Below are positions 7,593 through 18,450 of a stretch of 21,783 nucleotides of DNA, in pieces. Origin of the DNA: a virus; the IMG/VR virus record IMGVR_UViG_3300042542_001845, positions 1 to 21,783 of that record; one strand, given 5' to 3'. The stretch's first letter is position 1. Every line of letters starts with the position of its first letter. The position numbers and the translations under genes are program-made. Under the pieces are notes generated by a model. The model was not told the DNA's origin. It made no database searches and was given only the letters and a program-made list of their open reading frames with translations.

Positions 7593-8714
7593 ATGCAACA
7601 TAGTAAGATAGTCGGCGGTTCGACCGCCAAGCGCGTCATAGCCTGCCCCGGCAGCGTGGCGCTAGTGGACACCATGCCGCCCCAGCCCAGCAGCAGCTAC
7701 GCCGACGAAGGCACGCTCCTGCACGACACCATAGCGTCGGTGTTAGAGAGCGACCTTGACCCGTACAGCATGGTCGGCACGACATACGCTAGTAGCGTAC
7801 TGACCGAAGCGTTGGTCGATGACAAGCTGGTGGTGGCGCTGCGTGCGCTGGACGAAATAGACCCGCAGGGGGAGATGGAATATGCGGTTGAAAGCAGGGT
7901 TGGCTTTGGTGATTTTCTGCCTGACGTTTTTGGTTCTACCGATCTTCTTGGTCGCCTTGGTGATAGAGCGGTTGTTTTGGATTGGAAGTTTGGTGACGGG
8001 GTGGCTGTCGAAGCTATCGAGAACGCCCAATTACTCTTCTACGCTGCGGCTGCTAAACGCACGGCGGAAACGGCGTGGGCGTTTGACGGGGCTAAAGAAG
8101 TAGAACTGATCATCGTGCAGCCGCCTTACGTTAAGCGGTGGGTGACAACGCTGGAGCGCGTTGACGCGTTTGAGAAGGAACTTGCCGCTGCCGTCAAGAT
8201 TGCTGCGCGGCCAGACGCGCCGTTGGCATCAGGCGACCATTGCAAGTGGTGCGCTGCCAAGCCTGTCTGCCCTGTCATGACCGGCGCTGTAGACCGCGCG
8301 CTAAAGGCCAAGGTTGATGCGCTGCCAATGGATCAGATAGCGCACTATTTGGAACAGGCGCCGTTGGTCGAGGCGTTCATTAAGGATTTGCAGCAGTTGG
8401 CGCATGGGCTTCTGGAAAGCGGGACTAAAGTCCCCGGCTGGAAGCTGGTCAACAAACGCGCAACACGGCAGTGGACAAACGAGGATAAAGCTGTAGCCTT
8501 CATGACCCAAGCGGGCGTGGAAGCATGGGCCGATCCGAAACCATTGTCGCCCGCACAAGCGGAAAAGGCTTTGAAGAAAGCCAAAATAGAATTGCCAGCG
8601 GACTTAATCGTCGCTGTCTCCAGTGGCTCTACCCTTGCGCCGGAAAGTGATTCTCGGCCAGCGGTCTTGCAGATCGGACAGATGCTTACCAAAGCTATGT
8701 CCAAAATCCAGTAA
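7593..8714 (+). CDS. DUF2800 family PD-(D/E)XK nuclease, Cas4/RecB-like
   Basis: I start at ATG 7593 (373 residues), behind GAGG at a 6-nt spacing; the frame extends 24 codons further up without support. The protein has RecB-nuclease features: His44 in DEGTLLHDTIA, Asp117 in FGSTDLLG, and Asp130-x-Lys132 in VLDWKFGDG, followed by ENAQLLFYAAAA. Four cysteines, Cys18 in ACPGS and Cys217, Cys220 and Cys226 in HCKWCAAKPVC, are placed as in the iron-sulphur clusters of Cas4 and AddB nucleases. Family members are encoded with phage family A polymerases and are presumed to be replication or recombination exonucleases. It is first gene of the plus-strand replication module. Confidence 0.9.
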   Translation: MQHSKIVGGSTAKRVIACPGSVALVDTMPPQPSSSYADEGTLLHDTIASVLESDLDPYSMVGTTYASSVLTEALVDDKLVVALRALDEIDPQGEMEYAVESRVGFGDFLPDVFGSTDLLGRLGDRAVVLDWKFGDGVAVEAIENAQLLFYAAAAKRTAETAWAFDGAKEVELIIVQPPYVKRWVTTLERVDAFEKELAAAVKIAARPDAPLASGDHCKWCAAKPVCPVMTGAVDRALKAKVDALPMDQIAHYLEQAPLVEAFIKDLQQLAHGLLESGTKVPGWKLVNKRATRQWTNEDKAVAFMTQAGVEAWADPKPLSPAQAEKALKKAKIELPADLIVAVSSGSTLAPESDSRPAVLQIGQMLTKAMSKIQ

Positions 8715-9593: not shown

Positions 9594-11545
9594 CTAAATT
9601 ATGGGTAGACTTTGAAACGCGCAGCCGGTGCGACCTTCGCAGCCGCGGCGTGTACAATTACGCGCAGGACGCCAGCACCGACGTGCTGTGTATGTCATAC
9701 GCATTTGATGACGAAGACGTGCGGACGTGGCTCCCCGGTGAGCCTTTCCCGCAAGCCGTTAAAGATCACAAGGGGCTAGTGTACGCGCACAACGCAGCGT
9801 TTGAGCGCCTGATATTCTGGTATGTCCTTCAGGTCGAGTTTAAGCTGGAGCAGTTCTATTGCACCGCAGCCCAAGCCCGCGCCAACTGTGCGCCGGGTAG
9901 CCTTGAGGATGTGGGCCGGTTCGCTGGCGCGACCATGAAGAAAGACCACCGCGGCGGACAACTGATCCGCGCGCTGTCCATCCCGCAGCCAGACGGCGAG
10001 TTCCGCCAAGACGCAAAGCTGATGCAAGAGATGGTTGACTATTGCGAACAGGATGTGCGGGCCATGCGTGCCATCACGCTGGCGCAGCGTCCGCTGTCGG
10101 CTGAAGAGTTGGTTGACTATCACGTCAACGAGCGCATCAACGACCGCGGCGTGCTGCTCGACCGGCCATTGGCGCTAGCAGCGGTGCGCTACGCTGAAGC
10201 TGAATTGACAGAGATACAAGACATCGTCGCAGAGGTGACGCATGGCGAGATTAAGTCCGTCCGCAGCCCGAAGATGAAGAAGTGGGTGTTGGACAGGGTA
10301 GGGCCGCAAGCACTTGAACTGGCTACCATTTACAAGGATGGCGAACCTAAGCTATCCATCGACAAGAACGTGCGGGCTAACTTGCTCACGTTGGCAGGGG
10401 AGAACGCGGATGAAGTACCATCGGAAGTTGCGGAAGTCATCCAGTGCGCGGACGATCTGTGGGCATCGTCCGTCGCTAAATTCCAACGTGCAGCGGCGCT
10501 TGCTGATGCGGAGGATTTTCGCGTTAGAGGAGCGTTCGTATTTTCTGGAGGCAGTGCTACTGGGCGCGCTTCATCGTTTGGGCTTCAGGTCCATAACTTC
10601 CCAAGAAAGTGCGCCGCAGACCCTGCATTAGTAAGGCAGGCTATGGTGCGCGGTCACAGGATCGTTCCCGATCATGGCCGGCGCGTAACAGACGTGCTGA
10701 AAGGTATGCTGCGCCCGTCGCTGATGGCTGACAAAGGCAAGCGCCTTGTCGTTGCCGATTGGGCTGCGATTGAAGCGCGGGTGACGCCGTGGGCGTCCAA
10801 CAGCACCTTTGGCGCGAACAAGCTGGACATCTTTGCCAAGGGTGAGGACGTGTACAAGCATAACGCTATGGCTACCTTCCATGTCGGCTATGATGACGTT
10901 AACAAAGACCAGCGCCAGATCGGCAAGGTTCAAGAGTTAGCCTGTGGCTTTGCCGGCGGCGTTGGTGCGTTCGCCAGCATGGGCCGCATCTATGGTCTGA
11001 TAATGTCAGAAAGCAACGCCAAGCGGATGGTTGACGCATGGCGCAGGGCTAACAAGTGGGCCGTGCCGTACTGGGCTGGCCTTGAAGAGACTTATATGCG
11101 TGCCATGCGGAACAAGAACTGTGAGTTTACGACGGGCCGCATCACATATTTATTCGACGGACTGCATCTTTGGTATGCGCTTCCGTCTGGACGTGTGTTA
11201 TGTTATCCTTTCGCCCGTTTCAACGAGGAAGGCGACCTGACCTACGCGAAGGCTTCTTGGAAGCCAGCCGCTGATGCGAAGGAGTGGCCGAGGGCGCGGC
11301 TATGGCGCGGTTTGGCGTGTGAGAACATCACGCAGGCTGTCGCCAACGACTTGCTGCGCTACGCTTTGCGCCGGCTGGACGATGTAGTTTTGCACATCCA
11401 CGATGAAATCGTCTTGGAAGTGCCAGAAGCAGATGCAGAGGCCGCAGCAGCGCGGCTGGTGAAGGTTATGTGTGAGCCGCCACCTTGGGCAGCAGGGCTA
11501 CCCCTGAACGCTGAAGTGGCAATTATGGAACGTTATGGCAAATAA
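9590..11545 (+). CDS. Phage family A DNA polymerase with 3'-5' exonuclease
   Basis: The ATG at 9590, overlapping the preceding stop, gives 651 residues. The N-terminal exonuclease has DFET (Asp7, Glu9), HNAAFERL and YCEQDVRAM, the ExoI, II and III motifs of DEDDy proofreading nucleases. Polymerase motif A is VADWAAIEARV (Asp390 the metal ligand, in place of the usual DYSQIELR). Motif B is RQIGKVQELACGFAGG (Lys446). Motif C is HIHDEIVLEV (His604, Asp605, Glu606). No 5' nuclease domain is present, as usual for phage forms. By hand alignment to E. coli Pol I, the residue at 762 is Leu (Leu450). This is the replicative polymerase of the phage. Confidence 0.95.
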   Translation: MTKLWVDFETRSRCDLRSRGVYNYAQDASTDVLCMSYAFDDEDVRTWLPGEPFPQAVKDHKGLVYAHNAAFERLIFWYVLQVEFKLEQFYCTAAQARANCAPGSLEDVGRFAGATMKKDHRGGQLIRALSIPQPDGEFRQDAKLMQEMVDYCEQDVRAMRAITLAQRPLSAEELVDYHVNERINDRGVLLDRPLALAAVRYAEAELTEIQDIVAEVTHGEIKSVRSPKMKKWVLDRVGPQALELATIYKDGEPKLSIDKNVRANLLTLAGENADEVPSEVAEVIQCADDLWASSVAKFQRAAALADAEDFRVRGAFVFSGGSATGRASSFGLQVHNFPRKCAADPALVRQAMVRGHRIVPDHGRRVTDVLKGMLRPSLMADKGKRLVVADWAAIEARVTPWASNSTFGANKLDIFAKGEDVYKHNAMATFHVGYDDVNKDQRQIGKVQELACGFAGGVGAFASMGRIYGLIMSESNAKRMVDAWRRANKWAVPYWAGLEETYMRAMRNKNCEFTTGRITYLFDGLHLWYALPSGRVLCYPFARFNEEGDLTYAKASWKPAADAKEWPRARLWRGLACENITQAVANDLLRYALRRLDDVVLHIHDEIVLEVPEADAEAAAARLVKVMCEPPPWAAGLPLNAEVAIMERYGK

Positions 11546-11555
11546 GGAGCAAGCG

Positions 11556-13904
11556 ATGAGTGAGGATCGCCAGAAGTTTATAGACTACATAGTTGGATTA
11601 GCCGCTGATACAGTGGGCGAGACAGCTTTGTTAGTGCGTCAGAAGCCCACACGCGGCGAGGACGGCAACCTGATTTACCATGCAGACGGCGCGCCAAAGG
11701 CCACCTTTCCTGCGTTCCTGCCCGAAAAGGCCCGCATCAAGGACGATGAGGCATGGTATGTCAACACTGGCTCGTTCGTCGTTGACCGCTTTGTAGACGG
11801 CAAGCCGGCTGCTAAGTCCAGCAACGTCGAGTTCGTCCTGTTTATGATGCTGGATGACATCGGCACAAAGTCAAAGACGCCGCCGCTTGACCCGACATGG
11901 ATACTGGAAACCAGCGAAGGTTCGTTCCAGTGGGGCTATGCGTTCAACGAACAACCAAACAAAGGCGATTTCTGCGCTGCCGTCAAGGCTATTGCAGACG
12001 CTGGCTACACTGATCCGGGCGCGACCAACGCTGTCCGTAACTGTCGCATCCCCGGCAGCGTTAACTTAAAGAGCGGACGCGGCAACTTTCCTGCGCGGCT
12101 GGTCGAGTTCCACCCAGACCGCGAATACACGTTAGATCAGATTTGCACTGCTTTAGGTGTGACGCCCGAAGAAGGCGACACAGCGGATTATAAAGCCGTA
12201 AAGATACGCGACACGGGGATGGACAACGTCCTGACATGGTTGAGCGAAAAGAACTTAGTTCTTAGCACTATCAACAACGACGGCTGGTGCGCCATCGTCT
12301 GCCCTAACCATCTGGAACACAGCGACGGCATGATCGAGGCGCGCTACAAGCCGCTTGATCGTTCGTTCTGCTGCTATCATGGGCATTGCCAAGACTTAGA
12401 CAGCCGGACGTTTCTTAGTTGGGTAGCCAATGAAGGTGGCCCGAAGGCAACGCCGGGCTTGCGTGACGAATTGATCGCTGAACGGATGGCGTCGATGATG
12501 GACAAGATTTCGCCTACGGAAGCCTTCCCTGATGAAGCCGCAGCGCGTGTGCGTGAGGTCGAAAAGAAAGAGGCAGGACGGCTGGAACAAAGCGAGTGGT
12601 TTGAGCGTTTCGCTTACATACAGTCTGATGATTGCTATTTCGACATGGTCACACGTCAAGAGATAGCGCGTAACGTCTTTAACGCCCTGTTCCGTCACGT
12701 TGACTGTCGCTCCATTCACAAGAAAACGCAGCGTGTGCAATCATCCATCTATTTTGATGAGCGTCGGCAGGATCGCGGCGCGCCAGCATTGGCAGCCGTG
12801 ACGTTTGCCGCTGGTGATGATGTGCTAGTAACGCGCGACGGGTTGGTCTACGGCAACAGGTGGACAAATGCCCGCCCTGATGTAGCTGACAGCGACAAGA
12901 TCGCGGATCACGATGTCGAGCCTTGGCTTGAGCATTGCCGCAATCTGATTACGGATGACAGGGATTTAGACCATATCCTTAACGCTATGGCGTTCAAGAT
13001 ACAGAACCCGCGCGTTAAGATTAACCATGCCATCCTGATTGGCGGCGATGAAGGCGCGGGCAAGGATACTATATTCCAACCGTTCCTATGGGCGCTGGGC
13101 GGCAGTAACTGGCGCAACAGGTCGGTCATCGAAGCTGGCGGATTGGAAAGCCAGTGGGGTTATGCGCTTGAGGCTGAAGTGGTCATCCTGAACGAGTTGA
13201 AGGAACCAGAAGCCCGCGAACGCCGCGCTATGGCTAACAAGCTAAAACCGCTGATCGCTGCGCCGCCTGCAACGCTGTCGGTTAACCGTAAGGGTATGCA
13301 CCCCTATGATTTGGTCAACCGCTTGATGGTGCTTGCATACACGAACGACTCGCTGCCTATCACCCTGCCTACGCAGGATCGCCGTTGGTTCTGCGTCTGG
13401 ACGCACGCGCCACGCATGACAACGCCAGCAGCCGACGCGCTGTGGGGCTGGTATGAGACAGGCGGCTATGAAAAGTGCGCCGCTTGGCTGTGGCAGCGCG
13501 ACGTGTCGCGGTTCAACCCTTCTGCGCCGCCGCCAGTAACCGAATGGAAGCTGAACATGGTCGAGCATGGTATGAGCGCCGCCGAAAGCTATCTGGTCGA
13601 GTTGATGCGCCAGCGTGGGGGTCTGTTTGCTGATGGTGTTATCGGTGGGCCGTTTCATCGCATCTGCGACTTGCTTGGGCCTCTATTGCCTGTCGGCATA
13701 AAGGTTCCACCGGCTGCACTGCTTCATGCGTTTAAGGAAGCTGGCTGGATCGACATGGGCCGCCTCAATTCAAAAGAACATATGAACAAAAAGCATATCT
13801 TTGCCGCGCCTGAAGTGATCCAAAAATATAACAAATCAGAGTTGCGCCGCATGGCGGAAGTGTTGCCAAACAGTAGTATTATGCCAACGCTAGGCAAGAA
13901 TTGA
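11556..13904 (+). CDS. Primase-helicase (RepB-like primase plus D5-like ATPase)
   Basis: I choose ATG 11556 because AAGGAG (11544-11549) stands 6 nt before it and is fused to the polymerase stop; ATG 11535 would add seven residues. The 782-residue protein has an N-terminal part resembling archaeo-eukaryotic/RepB-type primases (FVLFMMLDDIGTK, then NAVRNCRIPGSVNLK). A zinc-binding stretch follows, with CPNHLEHSD and FCCYHGHC. The C-terminal half is a superfamily 3-like ATPase: Walker A GGDEGAGKDT (from about residue 496), Walker B VVILNELKE (about 542-550), and a sensor-like LMVLAYTND. It should prime and unwind at the fork. It ends the plus-strand replication operon. Confidence 0.88.
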   Translation: MSEDRQKFIDYIVGLAADTVGETALLVRQKPTRGEDGNLIYHADGAPKATFPAFLPEKARIKDDEAWYVNTGSFVVDRFVDGKPAAKSSNVEFVLFMMLDDIGTKSKTPPLDPTWILETSEGSFQWGYAFNEQPNKGDFCAAVKAIADAGYTDPGATNAVRNCRIPGSVNLKSGRGNFPARLVEFHPDREYTLDQICTALGVTPEEGDTADYKAVKIRDTGMDNVLTWLSEKNLVLSTINNDGWCAIVCPNHLEHSDGMIEARYKPLDRSFCCYHGHCQDLDSRTFLSWVANEGGPKATPGLRDELIAERMASMMDKISPTEAFPDEAAARVREVEKKEAGRLEQSEWFERFAYIQSDDCYFDMVTRQEIARNVFNALFRHVDCRSIHKKTQRVQSSIYFDERRQDRGAPALAAVTFAAGDDVLVTRDGLVYGNRWTNARPDVADSDKIADHDVEPWLEHCRNLITDDRDLDHILNAMAFKIQNPRVKINHAILIGGDEGAGKDTIFQPFLWALGGSNWRNRSVIEAGGLESQWGYALEAEVVILNELKEPEARERRAMANKLKPLIAAPPATLSVNRKGMHPYDLVNRLMVLAYTNDSLPITLPTQDRRWFCVWTHAPRMTTPAADALWGWYETGGYEKCAAWLWQRDVSRFNPSAPPPVTEWKLNMVEHGMSAAESYLVELMRQRGGLFADGVIGGPFHRICDLLGPLLPVGIKVPPAALLHAFKEAGWIDMGRLNSKEHMNKKHIFAAPEVIQKYNKSELRRMAEVLPNSSIMPTLGKN

Positions 13905-13936: not shown

Positions 13937-14024
13937 GTTGGTAATGCTCTACTAACCCTCTTGGTGTCGCTTTGCTGACCCTTTTAAGCCCCCTGCGTCC
14001 TCACTCCGCAGGGGGCTTTTCTTT
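13937..14024 (+). ncRNA. Candidate short RNA of about 85-90 nt
   Basis: From the predicted transcription start, GTTGGT (13937-13942) can pair with ACTAAC (13951-13956), giving a 5' hairpin (one G-U pair). A single-stranded pyrimidine-rich stretch of about 30 nt follows, and the RNA ends in the strong intrinsic terminator. Promoter, 5' stem, open middle and Rho-independent end are the usual plan of a small regulatory RNA. The alternative is a 16-codon hydrophobic ORF at 13928-13978 without a good ribosome-binding site. Confidence 0.4.
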
Positions 14025-14026
14025 TA
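13986..14026 (+). terminator. Strong intrinsic terminator after the replication operon
   Basis: AAGCCCCCTGCG (13986-13997) and CGCAGGGGGCTT (14007-14018) form a perfect 12-bp stem around a 9-nt loop, followed by TTTTCTTTTATT. This is a textbook plus-strand terminator ending the polymerase-primase transcript. The opposite strand lacks a proper T-run. The terminator reaches the last codon of the convergent minus-strand gene. Confidence 0.92.
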
Positions 14027-14206
14027 TTCATCTTTTAACGCTGCTTCTGCGTCTTCGATTAACTCTATCGGCGGCCAGCGCAGATAGTTTACAAGTTCGG
14101 CGCTTAACACGCCAAGGTCTTCCAAGCGTTCCATCAGGCGGTAAGCCAAGGTAGCTTCGGCCCGTTCGGTGTATCTGTCGGGCAGCGCGTCATCATCATC
14201 GATCAT
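14024..14206 (-). CDS. Small acidic hypothetical protein, last gene of the minus-strand operon
   Basis: ATG 14206 overlaps the upstream stop as ATGA and is preferred to a TTG four codons further up. The product has 60 residues, is strongly acidic (MIDDDD start, EDAEAALKDE end) and mostly helical, with LAYRLMERLEDLGVLSAELV in the middle. No family is recognised. Small acidic phage proteins can mimic DNA or block host DNA-binding proteins, but nothing specific shows this here. Confidence 0.65.
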   Translation of the reverse strand: MIDDDDALPDRYTERAEATLAYRLMERLEDLGVLSAELVNYLRWPPIELIEDAEAALKDE

Positions 14207-14388
14207 TCTGGTGTCCAATCTTTAGGGTATGGCACTGACTTGTAACTGGTTCTGTAAAGTCTGCCGTTTTCGTCATAATGCTCGGTTACTGTCGAGCCGT
14301 CATCGTTCAGGACAACGGCAAGGTCGCCAAGCAGATGCAATGGTCGCCCGGTCTTAGGGTCGATGCGGTATTTTATTTCTTTGGTCAT
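14203..14388 (-). CDS. Small beta-rich hypothetical protein, 61 residues
   Basis: ATG 14388 overlaps the upstream stop (ATGA); AGGAAAAG lies just before it. The sequence reads as a small beta protein (KYRIDPKTGRPLHLLGDLAV, then DDGSTVTEHYDENGRLYR) with YPKDWTPE at the end. The alternating DENGRLYRTSY pattern resembles a beta-hairpin repeat of the YD type, though only one unit is present. No function is known to me. The next gene is coupled by ATGA. Confidence 0.7.
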   Translation of the reverse strand: MTKEIKYRIDPKTGRPLHLLGDLAVVLNDDGSTVTEHYDENGRLYRTSYKSVPYPKDWTPE

Positions 14389-14564
14389 TTCTTTTCCTCA
14401 ATCCAAAAGTGGTGCACCATGTAATGCGTAGCGGTTTCGTCTGTCACCCTTTCACCTATCCCGCCGCTTGCGGTGGTCAGGTGATTGGTGAAGGTGTTGG
14501 GGTCTTTAGCTGAACGCACCGCAGGGATGCGTGTCAGTTTCATATAGCCGTTTTGGTCGGTCAT
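14385..14564 (-). CDS. Small hypothetical protein, 59 residues
   Basis: The minus-strand frame starts at ATG 14564, 3 nt after the preceding gene's stop, and ends in an ATGA overlap with the next gene. The product MTDQNGYMKLTRIPAVRSAK continues through DPNTFTNHLTTASGGIGERV to a His/Trp-rich end (ATHYMVHHFWIEEKK). No family is recognised. The tight packing and coupled end make it a real gene despite its size. Confidence 0.65.
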   Translation of the reverse strand: MTDQNGYMKLTRIPAVRSAKDPNTFTNHLTTASGGIGERVTDETATHYMVHHFWIEEKK

Positions 14565-14567
14565 ATG

Positions 14568-14753
14568 TCACCCTAACCTAGTGATGAACGTGACGCCGTT
14601 GATCGTGCGGCACATGAAGCACTTGCCGTTACGGATGCCGTATTGCGACACGTTGCGGCTGGTGCGCTTGGCTGCGCCCTTGTCGGTGGCTGGCATAGTG
14701 CCAACATCGCCAACGGCCAGCGTTCCCATTGGGTAAAACATGGGGCGGCTCAC
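14568..14753 (-). CDS. Small basic hypothetical protein with GTG start
   Basis: I start at GTG 14753, which overlaps the upstream stop as GTGA; a TTG at 14777 would lengthen it by eight codons, and ATG 14741 would remove four. The 61-residue product is basic, with TSRNVSQYGIRNGKCFMCRT and a beta-like end GVTFITRLG. Short phage proteins with this 'vGd...yg.r.gkkf.cR....g..i.R' layout are common in my memory and lack known function. They may bind nucleic acid; Cys-x2-Cys alone is not a full zinc site. Confidence 0.65.
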   Translation of the reverse strand: MSRPMFYPMGTLAVGDVGTMPATDKGAAKRTSRNVSQYGIRNGKCFMCRTINGVTFITRLG

Positions 14754-14959
14754 GTTATCAGTCCCCGCGCTACGCAAGCCTGTCGCAGATGTTCAGGACG
14801 GACACCCCACCGCTTATAGATGTTGCCATAGTCGCGCCTAACGTCTGACAGGTGCGCTTCCTGCGCCCGTAGCGCAGCCTTTAGCTTGTCATGCTCTTTT
14901 ATAGCTTTCGCCGCTGTGCGTAGCACGCGCATTTGGTCTTTGGTGTCGAGATTGCTCAT
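14750..14959 (-). CDS. Coiled-coil hypothetical protein, 69 residues
   Basis: ATG 14959 follows the upstream stop by one base. The first 45 residues are a long charged helix (RTAAKAIKEHDKLKAALRAQ then EAHLSDVRRDYG) able to form a coiled coil. The end, RWGVRPEHLRQACVARGLIT, looks like a small helix-turn-helix. No family is known to me. The stop overlaps the next start as GTGA. Confidence 0.7.
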   Translation of the reverse strand: MSNLDTKDQMRVLRTAAKAIKEHDKLKAALRAQEAHLSDVRRDYGNIYKRWGVRPEHLRQACVARGLIT

Positions 14960-14960
14960 A

Positions 14961-15296
14961 TTATAGTTCCACTGTTATGTCGGGCTTCGCCCGTTTGTCG
15001 TTTAGTCGGTTAAGCCAAAAGGTTTGATCGTCACCAAATGACCGTGCTGCGTGATACTTGAACAGCGCAACGGCTAGCGGGTCGTAACCCTTCCACTTGT
15101 GCGTCACGATCAGGGGCGATGGCATCATGGCTTCTAGGCTGGTGCGCGTTGGGCGTTCCTTAGCCTTTGCCACAGCGTCTAGATCGCGCAACGTCAAGTT
15201 GATGTTAAACTCGCGGTTTATATGCTGCACCACGGCGGTTTTGTCGGTGATGTAGCCGCACAGATGCTTGATGCGCTTTCTAACAGCGTGTTCCAT
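14961..15296 (-). CDS. Hypothetical protein with possible N-terminal HTH, 111 residues
   Basis: The ATG at 15296 shares its A with the upstream TAA (TAATG). Residues about 1-45 (HAVRKRIKHLCGYITDKTAV, then INREFNINLTLRDLDAVAKA) have the helix-turn-helix rhythm of small DNA-binding proteins. The remainder holds GYDPLAVALFKYHAARS and an acidic end. It is one of the larger products of this operon and a candidate regulator, by inference only. Confidence 0.7.
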   Translation of the reverse strand: MEHAVRKRIKHLCGYITDKTAVVQHINREFNINLTLRDLDAVAKAKERPTRTSLEAMMPSPLIVTHKWKGYDPLAVALFKYHAARSFGDDQTFWLNRLNDKRAKPDITVEL

Positions 15297-15496
15297 TAGC
15301 GTTTGTCCCGCTTGACGTATTTGCCGGATTTAGGATCGCGCATGACTGCGTTGCGCTTCCAATGTAGCAGTTCCTTTGTGTCGCGCACCCATGCTTTGCG
15401 GAACCAGTTATATTGCCGGTGCGTATCCCATAGGATAGCCAATGTTGCGGCTTGTGCGGCTAACAGAACCGCAATTGTCATATATTCGGGTGACAT
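15296..15496 (-). CDS. Small N-terminally anchored membrane protein, 66 residues
   Basis: ATG 15496 is preceded by a very good GGAGG site 6 nt away, which lies inside the tiny upstream ORF. Residues about 4-22 (EYMTIAVLLAAQAATLAIL) form one TM helix or an uncleaved signal anchor; the rest is very basic (RQYNWFRKAWVRDTKELLHW and KYVKRDKR), predicting a cytoplasmic tail. Function unknown. Stop and next start overlap as TAATG. Confidence 0.7.
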   Translation of the reverse strand: MSPEYMTIAVLLAAQAATLAILWDTHRQYNWFRKAWVRDTKELLHWKRNAVMRDPKSGKYVKRDKR

Positions 15497-15498
15497 AG

Positions 15499-15558
15499 TT
15501 AATCCTCCAATATTAGTGTTAATAGGAATAGTGCGGCGCCAGCGATTAGCGCGGTCAT
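15499..15558 (-). CDS. 19-residue hydrophobic micro-ORF
   Basis: The ATG at 15558 overlaps the upstream stop as ATGA; 19 codons give MTALIAGAALFLLTLILED, almost entirely one membrane helix with an acidic end. Its last codons carry the GGAGG ribosome-binding site of the next gene, whose ATG lies 2 nt after its stop. It may be a real micropeptide or simply a translation bridge that keeps ribosomes on the operon mRNA. Confidence 0.45.
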   Translation of the reverse strand: MTALIAGAALFLLTLILED

Positions 15559-15764
15559 TCTGCCATATCGTCGCGCAGGGCGTTATTCTCAGCGACTAAG
15601 CGGTCATATAGTATCTGCAATTGCTCTAATTGGTCTTCAACGTCCAACAGAACGCTTAGGCGCTCGGCCAGCACAACAGACAGTTCGTGTGTGTGTTCTA
15701 GTGTGGCGTTCACTAACTCCCGATCTGAGAGCATACTTAGATAGGTTCGATCTTGATTTGTCAT
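15555..15764 (-). CDS. Coiled-coil hypothetical protein, 69 residues
   Basis: ATG 15764 lies 3 nt after the stop of the upstream gene, with GAGAA just before it. The protein is acidic and nearly all helix; LAERLSVLLDVEDQLEQLQI continuing through YDRLVAENNALRDDM has clear leucine heptads and should dimerise as a coiled coil. No family is recognised. Its TGA overlaps the start of the 19-codon ORF. Confidence 0.7.
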   Translation of the reverse strand: MTNQDRTYLSMLSDRELVNATLEHTHELSVVLAERLSVLLDVEDQLEQLQILYDRLVAENNALRDDMAE

Positions 15765-15767
15765 TTC

Positions 15768-16046
15768 TCAGTTTCCTTTTGCTTTTGCGATTGCGGCTTG
15801 CGCTGCGACAATGGCAGCGGTTTCGTATCCTTCATCGTCATATTGGGCATGATCGGCAAATAGCGCCAACATAGTATCCAGTGCTGCCAACATCTCGTTG
15901 TAGCTGTCTTGCATCGCCAAGATCGCGGTTAGGTTCTCGACGCTATCGTCGTATAGTTCGCCCTCATTGTTTACGGCGTTGCCCATTAGCACGCATTTGT
16001 TGCTTTGGATTAGCTCGCGCACGGTGCGGAATATGTCGTTAGTCAT
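15768..16046 (-). CDS. Acidic helical hypothetical protein, 92 residues
   Basis: ATG 16046 is preceded by AAGGAAA, which lies inside the 29-codon ORF just upstream. The protein is acidic and Ala-rich with several short helices (NLTAILAMQDSYNEMLAALD, then ALFADHAQYDDEGYETAAIV) and one Cys. No family is recognised. Its composition suits a small protein-binding phage factor, but nothing specific is visible. Confidence 0.7.
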   Translation of the reverse strand: MTNDIFRTVRELIQSNKCVLMGNAVNNEGELYDDSVENLTAILAMQDSYNEMLAALDTMLALFADHAQYDDEGYETAAIVAAQAAIAKAKGN

Positions 16047-16049
16047 GGT

Positions 16050-16139
16050 TCAGTTTCCTTTTAATGTAATGATGATTGATGTGATGGATAGCAGCAGCAC
16101 GGCGACAAAGCCGGCTGTGGCTAAGACGTGCGCGATCAT
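16050..16139 (-). CDS. 29-residue hydrophobic micro-ORF
   Basis: The ATG at 16139 overlaps the upstream stop as ATGA. Twenty-nine codons give MIAHVLATAGFVAVLLLSIT followed by SIIITLKGN, a complete TM helix with a short basic tail. Its final codons contain the AAGGAAA site of the next gene, which starts 3 nt beyond its stop. This repeats the arrangement of the 19-codon ORF about 550 nt further along the same operon. Confidence 0.5.
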   Translation of the reverse strand: MIAHVLATAGFVAVLLLSITSIIITLKGN

Positions 16140-16375
16140 GCGCCCTCCACTTCGACGAAATAATAGCCATCGCCTTTGACGTTGCCACCTTGGGCAAACT
16201 TGCCCGTCCAGCCTAGCTTAGCCATTAGAGCGTCAGCAGCGGCCTTGTGGGCATTGTCAGTGCTTAGCGCATAGTCATAGCCAACTGTAATGCTGCCCGC
16301 CCATGCGGACGCCTTGATGCGGCTCCCCTTGGTGTTGGTTGGTTTGATGTGCTTGGTTTCGATTGCTTGGAACAT
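16136..16375 (-). CDS. Conserved small phage/plasmid-type protein, 79 residues
   Basis: ATG 16375 is chosen because the 12-nt leader GGAGTGAGTGAA stands directly before it; the frame extends up to a GTG at 16399 without support. The sequence MFQAIETKHIKPTNTKGSRI, then WAGSITVGYDYAL, AADALMAKLGW and GGNVKGDGYYFVEV belongs to a family of short proteins that I recall from many proteobacterial phages and plasmids, with no known function. The GSRIKA and KLGW..K...GG...G..FV positions are the recognisable ones. Confidence 0.78.
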   Translation of the reverse strand: MFQAIETKHIKPTNTKGSRIKASAWAGSITVGYDYALSTDNAHKAAADALMAKLGWTGKFAQGGNVKGDGYYFVEVEGA

Positions 16376-16413
16376 TTCACTCACTCCTGTTGTTGGCACT
16401 AGCGCCAGCCTCG

Positions 16414-16431
16414 CGGCGGATTGCTCCGCCG
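16414..16431 (-). other. Intercistronic hairpin
   Basis: CGGCGGA (16414-16420) pairs with TCCGCCG (16425-16431) around a 4-nt loop, in the gap between two minus-strand genes. No T-run follows on the minus strand, so mRNA processing or stability is more likely than termination. Confidence 0.5.
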
Positions 16432-16441
16432 TCCGGTGGTG

Positions 16442-16789
16442 TTAGTCAGCGTAGAAACAAAGGTCGAAATTGTAATGCGGCTCCGCAAAGATGCCGATTT
16501 GGCAAAGCGCATCGCTGGCAACTAGCGCCCATGAATAAGGGCCACCTTCAAACGACACACGCCAGCCGCCGCGCTCTGGCCGCATGAAGCACTCGATCTC
16601 TGGCTTGCAGCCAATATCAGCGGCAAACTTGCACATGGCATCGTATGCGGCCTTAGCGCGCCCCTTGGGGCTTTTGCGCTTAACAGCGGCCAGCGCCACA
16701 CGTTCGGCCAGCATGGTAGAGCCTTCGCCGTAGTAATAACCCTCATTCTTGAAGGCGTATTCTAGGTTCAATGTGATTGCTTGTGTCAT
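16442..16789 (-). CDS. Hypothetical protein, 115 residues
   Basis: ATG 16789 overlaps the upstream stop (ATGA) and has GGGAG about 9 nt before it; the longer frame to 16816 lies inside the upstream gene. The protein mixes helices and strands (EGSTMLAERVALAAVKRKSP, then RGGWRVSFEGGPYSWALVAS) and ends FDLCFYAD. Four cysteines are scattered. I do not recognise the family. Confidence 0.72.
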   Translation of the reverse strand: MTQAITLNLEYAFKNEGYYYGEGSTMLAERVALAAVKRKSPKGRAKAAYDAMCKFAADIGCKPEIECFMRPERGGWRVSFEGGPYSWALVASDALCQIGIFAEPHYNFDLCFYAD

Positions 16790-17118
16790 GCCATGTCTCC
16801 CATTGCTTGCGCCCACAGGCTATTGCAGATGTCGTTGTCGGTGTGGTCTTGGATCAGTTCGCTGCCATCGTCGGCATTGCCCCAGACAAGATAGAGACTG
16901 CCAGCGTAGTTACCATTGGCGTCTATCAAGCGCAGCGTATCTTCGCCTGTGGTGGCTAAGGCGCGCGACACAGGCGTCCACATGGTTGCGCGCTTTACAG
17001 TCCATTCTTCACCATCGTTTACGTCGATTTCGCAGCCAGCAGCTAACGCTGCGCGGACTAGTTTGCGCGCTACTGTGCGTTCACCTTGTGTGGTGTAGTG
17101 ATCAAAAGATGTAGTCAT
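16786..17118 (-). CDS. Conserved small phage protein, 110 residues
   Basis: ATG 17118 follows the 12-nt leader GGAGTGAGAACC; the upstream 33 codons of open frame run back into the neighbouring gene and are not supported. Recognisable parts are VNDGEEWTVKR, TTGEDTLRLIDANGNYAGSL followed by YLVWGN, and DHTDNDICNSLW. I recall short phage proteins with the same 'dgeewtvkRs...tD.DtLr....G..vGsv.lvyGn....isDhTdn' layout, without known function. Possibly an alpha/beta two-layer protein. Confidence 0.75.
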   Translation of the reverse strand: MTTSFDHYTTQGERTVARKLVRAALAAGCEIDVNDGEEWTVKRATMWTPVSRALATTGEDTLRLIDANGNYAGSLYLVWGNADDGSELIQDHTDNDICNSLWAQAMGDMA

Positions 17119-17141
17119 GGTTCTCACTCCAGTTGAATTGA

Positions 17142-17339
17142 TTAATACTGATCTGCGCTCTGCGCCCACATTGTCTGACGCATCGCGTCTTCCCAACCTA
17201 AATGCCAGCGGTTCCAACGGCTGTCGATTGAGCGGTCGCTGCTAGAGCTATAAGGACAATCGACGCTACGGTCGCCGCGCCCAAATGCGTTGTATCCATC
17301 GTGATACTCTACGTTGTCGGTTCTGGTGTATTCGGTCAT
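17142..17339 (-). CDS. RMF-like (ribosome modulation factor / CrpP-fold) small protein
   Basis: ATG 17339 stands behind the leader GGAGTGAGTGAA, giving 65 residues; the longer open frame upstream is Arg/Cys-rich noise across the preceding gene. The pattern HDGYNAFGRG, CPYSSSS, RWNRWHLGWEDAM matches the RMF signature GY.AG..G.....CPY......W..GW.eAm in order and spacing. Bacterial RMF (about 55 residues) binds the 30S subunit and promotes inactive 100S ribosome dimers. Phage and plasmid members of this fold are known but their role is unclear. Compared with RMF it has a longer, Ser-rich linker between CPY and the Trp. It could affect host translation. Confidence 0.6.
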   Translation of the reverse strand: MTEYTRTDNVEYHDGYNAFGRGDRSVDCPYSSSSDRSIDSRWNRWHLGWEDAMRQTMWAQSADQY

Positions 17340-17363
17340 TTCACTCACTCCGTTTGAAAAGGT

Positions 17364-17388
17364 CTGCGCGACGAGCTGCGCCGCGCAG
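17364..17388 (-). other. Intercistronic hairpin before the RMF-like gene leader
   Basis: CTGCGCG (17364-17370) and CGCGCAG (17382-17388) pair around an 11-nt loop, between the first two genes of the minus-strand operon and 12 nt upstream of the GGAGTGA leader. No T-run follows. It may tune decay or readthrough of the operon mRNA. Confidence 0.4.
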
Positions 17389-17395
17389 GATAGGT

Positions 17396-17617
17396 TTACC
17401 ATTCGCCGCCAGCGGCACGGACTTCGTCGCGGCGCTCTGCCAGCGGCGCAAGCGCATCGCGGACATTGGCGATTGCTTGTGCGACTGTCTCTGCGCCGTC
17501 TAAGCACTCAAGGATGTCACCGTCTGACCAGCACTCTACAACATAGTCCCAGCCGTCAGATTCGTATGTCCGCAGCGCGTGATTGCGGACGGCATTGATA
17601 AGGTCTTGTTCGTTCAT
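17396..17617 (-). CDS. Conserved small phage protein, first gene of the minus-strand operon
   Basis: ATG 17617 has the leader GGAGTGAATGAC directly before it, giving 73 residues. It is acidic and helical: LINAVRNHALRTYESDGWDY, VECWSDGDILECL, then AQAIANVRDALAPLAERRDE. I recall many short phage and plasmid proteins with the same 'avrnhA..nYe.dGWD..vECw.d.di' pattern; none has an assigned function. Being promoter-proximal, it is likely the most strongly expressed early product of this operon. Confidence 0.78.
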   Translation of the reverse strand: MNEQDLINAVRNHALRTYESDGWDYVVECWSDGDILECLDGAETVAQAIANVRDALAPLAERRDEVRAAGGEW

Positions 17618-17651
17618 GTCATTCACTCCTACAGCGTCATGCTGTGCCCTC

Positions 17652-17679
17652 ATTCTACATTTTAAGAGGGTATGTTCAA
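17652..17679 (-). promoter_or_regulatory. Minus-strand promoter for the small-gene operon
   Basis: On the minus strand TTGAAC (17674-17679) is followed after 16 bp by TAGAAT (17652-17657), near-consensus -35 and -10 elements. Expected start is near 17645, about 28 nt before the first gene. A GAGGGTA box (17666-17672) lies in the spacer, and ACAGC/GCTGT (17631-17645) forms a short inverted repeat at the start point, so repression there is plausible. Confidence 0.55.
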
Positions 17680-17864: not shown

Positions 17865-17905
17865 AATGACGTTCCGAATGACAACCAAATGACGTCCCAA
17901 ATGAC
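17865..17905 (+). repeat. Four tandem AATGAC iterons
   Basis: AATGAC begins at 17865, 17877, 17888 and 17900, spacings of 12, 11 and 12 nt, each followed by two variable bases and CC (or TCC/CCC). One-helical-turn spacing places all copies on one face of the DNA, as in origin iterons or cooperative operators. Two inverted copies (GTCATT) lie at 17965 and 17977 beyond the DnaA box. Confidence 0.7.
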
Positions 17906-17929
17906 TACCGATTATAATGAAAATAAATC

Positions 17930-17938
17930 TGTGGATAA
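17930..17938 (-). promoter_or_regulatory. Consensus DnaA box
   Basis: TGTGGATAA is the exact reverse complement of TTATCCACA, the consensus binding site for the host initiator DnaA. It lies in an AT-rich stretch (17911-17950) that could melt easily, between the left AATGAC iterons and the right inverted GACGTCATT copies. Together these form a plausible replication origin. Confidence 0.6.
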
Positions 17939-18163
17939 CTTACACAAAATGGACGTCATGGGACGTCATTAGGGACGTCATTATTCAACAGCAAATGACG
18001 TCCGGATTATTGGCGGAATTGCGCCATTCGGGGATGCTAATTGTCATATTGCCATTATATTTGTTTAAAGTCAGGTTTTATAAAATGGGTATATATATAA
18101 CCTATACGGTACGCTGTACGCATTTCGTCAGCGACTGGTGTTTTTGAAATCATGACGTCCCTT

Positions 18164-18450
18164 ACTGTATTAACACAGTAACACACCTAGCTGTTTGTTC
18201 TCATTGGTTGACGTTAACGTCAAGCGTTCTGGCATGACTTGGATTGTCATGACAACATGACGTCTGCTGGTGTATTAACACACTAACACACCTAGCTAGC
18301 TAGCAATGTGTTTTTTCCAATTCGCGCAAGCGCAGAAAGGGAAAGGCCATTCCTAATTCTAGCTAGCAAGAACATAAGCAGAACGCTAATCACTGTGTTA
18401 ACACAGCAACACACCTAATGCTGGCAGCACTGTGTTAGTGTATTAATACA
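18164..18450. repeat. Array of four TTAA-centred palindromic operators
   Basis: Sites: ACTGTATTAACACAGT (18164-18179), GTGTATTAACACAC (18270-18283), CTGTGTTAACACAG (18393-18406, perfect palindrome) and TGTATTAATACA (18439-18450, perfect palindrome). The first three are each followed within two bases by the identical AACACACCTA (18180, 18285, 18408). CTAG-rich flanks (CTAGCTAGCTAGC at 18292 and CTAGCTAGC at 18359) accompany them. Centres are 105, 123 and 45 bp apart. This looks like an operator array for a dimeric repressor or initiator. Confidence 0.7.
18208..18223. promoter_or_regulatory. 16-bp perfect palindrome
   Basis: TTGACGTTAACGTCAA reads the same on both strands. It combines the GACGT core of the GACGTC cluster with the GTTAAC core of the neighbouring operator array. 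A second perfect palindrome of 12 bp, TTGTCATGACAA, lies at 18244-18255. Confidence 0.7.

Follow-up and report, generated by a model that had tools for sequence, protein, structure and literature searches.

The window, that is, the whole stretch of DNA analyzed here, is a partial IMG/VR contig of 21,783 bases. By TerL comparison, its nearest annotated genomes are MW202483, a podovirus with a P22-like portal, and Phage DSL-LC05 from Dishui Lake; a host search in genome contigs returned one uncultured bin and nothing else. The phage encodes its own PolA-type polymerase and a primase-helicase (Table 1). A gap of about 1 kb, holding repeats, a DnaA box, and further iterons, separates small leftward ORFs, the last of which starts near 17,653, from terS and terL directly downstream of the repeat array. 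About 12 such leftward ORFs occupy positions 14024-17653; several of them are missing from relatives with a 95-99% identical TerL or have diverged strongly there.

Table 1. Features of the candidate origin and its proposed initiator in the window
Feature	Position	Strand	Detail
Left iteron set	17865-17909	+	AATGACGTTCC 17865, AATGACAACC 17877, AATGACGTCCC 17888, AATGACTACC 17900
AT-rich core GATTATAATGAAAATAAATC	17910-17929		AAATAAA(T/C)C preceding box kept in relatives
DnaA box, exact	17930-17938	-	TTATCCACA on minus strand
Right iteron set, inverted	17951-17982	-	copies at 17951, 17961, and 17973, GGACGTCAT(T)
Additional iteron AATGACGTCC	17994-18003	+	
Second AT-rich element TATATATATAACC	18080-18104		similar element in relatives
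Distal iteron ATGACGTCC	18152-18160	+	switches class with core set in relatives
Distal iteron ATGACGTCT, one mismatch	18257-18265	+	switches class with core set in relatives
Primase-helicase, proposed initiator	11535-13904	+	RepB-primase-like N-terminal part, DUF5906 helicase-type core
C-terminal winged-helix-like domain, proposed iteron reader	13560-13901	+	residues 676-789
Wing loop NSKEHMNK, covarying recognition segment	13767-13790	+	residues 745-752

The iteron array and the DnaA box

Upstream of terS, an AT-rich core that includes the DnaA box lies between two opposed sets of ATGACGTCC iterons; the arrangement, two iteron sets around an AT-rich region, is that of P4-alpha/SaPI-Rep-type origins. 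A sequence-only reading had proposed an origin here from four AATGAC direct repeats, an exact DnaA box, and inverted copies to its right, and all of these were recovered: the repeats are spaced by 12, 11, and 12 nt, the box is an exact TGTGGATAA, and the right-side copies are GGACGTCAT. Its list was accurate in the copies named but omitted three on the plus strand (17995-18003, 18152-18160, and 18257-18265). Within the left set, the full GT(C/T)C tail is carried only at 17865 and 17888, and the variant at 17877 predominates among the iterons of some relatives. Repeats and exact box are far beyond chance. With at most one mismatch, ATGACGTCC occurs 15 times in the window versus 3.5 ± 2.0 times in shuffles (maximum, 8), and its six exact copies all fall within 17889-18160 (Poisson log10 p of about -15 for a 1.4-kb region). 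The GC-skew profile, suggested earlier as a check, gave no clear switch at the candidate origin in this partial contig. The origin matched none of 50,697 phage records in a nucleotide search, and its region matched nothing in Rfam.

The box at 17930-17938 is the sole exact DnaA box in the window. An exact box is present in 18 of the 38 nonredundant origins of the window's clade versus 0.41 expected from shuffles; 16 of these 18 share orientation and context, and the box often lies 21-22 nt ahead of the right iteron set. In near relatives, the context AAATAAA(T/C)CTGTGGATAA is kept at the same site while the iterons differ. Outside the clade, an exact box was found in only 2 of 17 origins. Conservation among relatives is therefore partial within the clade and not universal, and the box is best described as a real but clade-specific accessory.

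Two other elements lie near the array. A second repeat family, TTAACACA..AACACACCTA, has three copies to its right (18168-18189, 18273-18294, and 18398-18417); it shows no link to iteron class and is kept only partly in relatives. A perfect palindrome, TTGACGTTAACGTCAA, lies at 18208-18223, and since similar versions occur near the origin in relatives with other iterons, a different factor probably binds it.

Covariation of iterons with the primase-helicase C-terminus

TerL and primase scans yielded about 160 related loci. About 90 classified related IMG/VR loci carry the array at the equivalent position upstream of terS, and iterons are general at this site, although their sequence switches. 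The switch is coherent (ATGACGTCC, ATGACAACC, ATAGCCTAA, ATGACCCAG, ATTGTCCACA, CTGCCGAAA, and others), with left, right, and distal copies changing class jointly, and word counts distinguish at least 10 classes family-wide. For instance, the window's type is replaced by ATGACCTACC in L029, ATAGCCTAAC in L046, and ATGACAAC in L010 and L011; L007 carries ATGACCCAG and a DnaA box with one mismatch. In L012 and L150, overlapping TCACCGTGAC / GCGATCACC repeats (at least four copies) lie 1,400 b upstream of terS besides the iterons.

The last three 30-residue blocks of the primase-helicase are 100% identical between the window and L004, which shares its iterons, and 63-83% identical in L007, L029, and L046, which have other iterons, except for one L029 block; the L029 protein also diverges near its N-terminus. 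Covariation was quantified with iteron class assigned from DNA alone. N745 ranked first of 789 columns by mutual information with iteron class; in close pairs, whose primase-helicase bodies are at least 80% identical, it differed in 97% of 438 different-class pairs versus 11% of 263 same-class pairs, at equal mean body identity (0.901 and 0.904, respectively). The eleven best-scoring columns all lie within 741-763. The covariation delta was 0.88 for N745 and at most 0.26 for nine other proteins, and a tenth, a poorly sampled ORF (20 and 16 pairs), reached 0.44. On a tree built from residues 1-690, which excludes the C-terminus, there were about 21 class changes and about 20 changes of residue 745, and in independent pairs the two never moved in opposite ways; for the CTA class, seven of eight agreed in direction (p 0.016), and in each of the remaining classes the pairs were too few for significance.

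Other proteins were considered as readers. The 111-residue ORF did not covary with iteron class, and the other small ORFs, the polymerase, and the exonuclease gave nothing comparable to N745. Thus, of the two phage-encoded binders suggested earlier, the primase-helicase, through its C-terminal domain, is supported by covariation and the 111-residue protein is not. As judged from these comparisons, there is good support for a candidate iteron origin and for a phage protein as its iteron binder, and the iterons appear specific to their cognate C-terminal domain.

The protein has a DUF5906 match above cutoff (residues 502-617), a RepB_primase-like match (residues 102-193) of 23.8 bits, just under the 24.3 cutoff, and the PHROG annotation primase. 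Its sole significant PDB sequence match is the NrS-1 helicase part (6k9e; E 1.7e-10; residues 471-673), and the C-terminal domain matched no PDB sequence significantly. Primase and helicase parts thus appear to be joined in one protein, as in P4-alpha/SaPI-Rep-type initiators. The isolated C-terminal domain was modeled with a pLDDT of 82 and a pTM of 0.72, in the order helix-strand-helix-helix-strand-loop-strand, and is predicted to adopt a winged-helix fold. The covarying segment falls in the hairpin loop that joins the strands, the wing, which starts with residue 745; the invariant L730, H731, A732, and E735 are in the helix before it. Most fold matches were winged helices, at low scores (best Z, 6.8; Foldseek E above 0.1); the P4 origin-binding domain did not appear among them, an absence that is not decisive. 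The full-length model was poor (pLDDT, 64; pTM, 0.34) and unusable outside the C-terminus. A search of all loci for the reader domain apart from the primase, for example fused to an Odn-like nuclease, found only a broken-frame primase in L136 (6044-8303), where the frame breaks ahead of the domain, which continues in another frame (8094-8303), through either a sequencing error or a real truncation.

In a 10-base iteron frame with the near-constant part A-T-x-x-C, residue 745 corresponds to bases 6-8 as follows: G with CTA (19/19), N with GTC (11) or AAC (1) (12/12 together), H with CCA (3/3), A with CCA (6/8), K with xCA (11/11, base 6 variable), and D with CGA (1); residue 747 corresponds to bases 9-10, R with CA (11/11) and K with C at base 9 (12/13). 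Because the DNA-derived class served as the seed for finding the motifs, the counts characterize the classes and do not amount to another independent test. L029 (G745, K747) joins CTA with CC, as two modules would predict. For origins held out in two new scans, the 745 rule was correct in 11 of 12 (shuffle p 3e-5), a few loci with weak repeats being left unclassified. These scans added D745 with S or T747 for TGCCGAGA, E745 for TGCGGAGA, and H745 with R747 for CCACA. Exceptions are L133 and L135 (GRIACVD with ATAGCCTA), L208 (A745 with CTA), and L244 (A745 with TGCCGATC). The GRIACVD wing of L132, L133, and L135 accompanies mixed CCAG and CTA iterons, which may be code exceptions or origins in transition. 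In MW202483 (3600-5200), a GMCFAPE wing of unclassified specificity occurs with TTGGTAGTG repeats at the origin position and many GTTTACATAAAC-type repeats.

Proposed origin function and alternative explanations

We consider it very probable (about 0.85) that the region is a replication origin and that the primase-helicase binds its iterons via the C-terminal winged-helix domain, opens the core, and loads helicases. We infer that several copies of the protein would bind the iterons through this domain, that the AT-rich core would melt once both opposed sets are bound, that helicase rings would be loaded facing apart, and that the primase-helicase would supply primers to the phage's own polymerase, with opening assisted in the window's clade by host DnaA bound at the box. 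In base reading, as we infer it, the constant part of the iteron would be occupied by the invariant HTH helix, and its variable half would be read by the wing (residues 745-751), with 745 facing bases 6-8 and 747 facing bases 9-10. Even odds are given to a broader proposal, that the wing rather than the HTH helix carries a modular, near-two-residue code. Iterons would then be predictable from the initiator and the reverse, and replicon specificity would switch rapidly in populations, like plasmid incompatibility groups, perhaps avoiding cross-replication by coinfecting kin or origin-directed attack.

Repeats directly upstream of terS and terL could instead be the site where the small terminase binds for packaging (pac/cos), and repeats near terS are indeed familiar from cos/pac phages. 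Such repeats would be expected to coevolve with the small terminase; yet neither subunit covaries with iteron class (largest delta, 0.17 for TerS and 0.09 for TerL), and TerS is 92-96% identical to the window's in L004, L007, and L029, the last two having other iterons, which makes packaging very improbable. The repeats might also be operators for divergent transcription under the control of the C-terminal domain or of some other regulator, given that the gap separates leftward from rightward genes, that a promoter-like match (17889-17918) overlaps an iteron, and that distal copies exist at 18152 and 18257. Promoter-like matches, however, barely exceed shuffles (4 versus 2.3 ± 1.3), and the protein that covaries with the iterons is a primase-helicase, as initiators usually are; we regard operators alone as unlikely, and autoregulation may be superimposed on origin function.

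Covariation could also arise by linkage, the C-terminus and the origin traveling on one recombination block with neither reading the other, given their distance of about 4 kb and the evident mosaic exchange. The primase genes of L125 and L108 are mostly 90-99% identical but 73-79% identical in windows covering the last ~230 nt, and the ~500 nt past the gene are again 94-100% identical though both ends differ; the domain thus changed by itself, at a distance of kilobases from the iterons. The L096/L102 pair likewise has a near-identical primase body, a drop in the last 200-300 nt, and recovery downstream, and in both pairs the origin arrays differ. Consequently, domain and array changed separately and yet always match. 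Moreover, the intervening ORFs (14750, 14961, 15296, and 15555) do not covary, the signal within the protein is strongest at individual wing residues, and a given iteron is paired with the same residue again in distant lineages. Linkage is therefore the explanation to which we give least credence, and reading of the iterons by the C-terminal domain is preferred.

Relation to known replication systems

The proposed reading of the iterons by the primase-helicase ties an orphan array to a likely reader at the residue level, and the rule predicts, from a single protein loop, which repeats an uncultured phage has at its origin. At least 10 repeat specificities turn over among otherwise closely similar phages, and why phages diversify their origins becomes directly testable. 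RFX1 is a precedent for DNA reading by a wing. The P4 origin-binding domain has been compared with RFX1 (PMC10516667).

By analogy, the window's origin looks like a P4/SaPI-style layout, which would extend iterons around an AT-rich core, known from phage satellites, to a podophage family. P4 alpha combines primase, helicase, and a winged-helix domain binding ori repeats in one protein (PMC4234260), and the window's protein also joins primase and helicase with a predicted winged-helix domain. However, the P4 primase is of the bacterial TOPRIM type and the window's is RepB/AEP-like; this phage differs further in its DnaA box, its PolA-type polymerase, its podophage genome, and the many iteron specificities among near-identical members of its family. 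SaPI/PICI origins likewise have two iteron sets around an AT-rich region (PMC6092414), and the C-terminal domain of SaPI Rep recognizes iterons (PMC7581432), a role that is putative in the window; PICI origins lie directly 3' of rep, whereas the window's lies ~4 kb from the gene, beside terS. The likeness to the NrS-1 primase-polymerase is limited to residues 471-673, with the C-terminal domain outside the match.

Geminivirus Rep comes from small circular ssDNA viruses and is not a winged-helix primase-helicase. As in the window's family, geminivirus iterons differ between close relatives, each matching its own Rep (PMC12548392). In the Vibrio cholerae PLE, the initiator DNA-binding domain and ori covary and have been swapped repeatedly, and cognate pairing was shown experimentally (PMC8263062). 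This resembles the exchange described here, but the PLE reader is an N-terminal RepA_N domain, neither primase nor helicase activity is predicted for its protein, and there are two module types without a residue-level code. The general scheme is known from P4 alpha and SaPI Rep, and the new part is the proposed wing-borne, fast-switching code.
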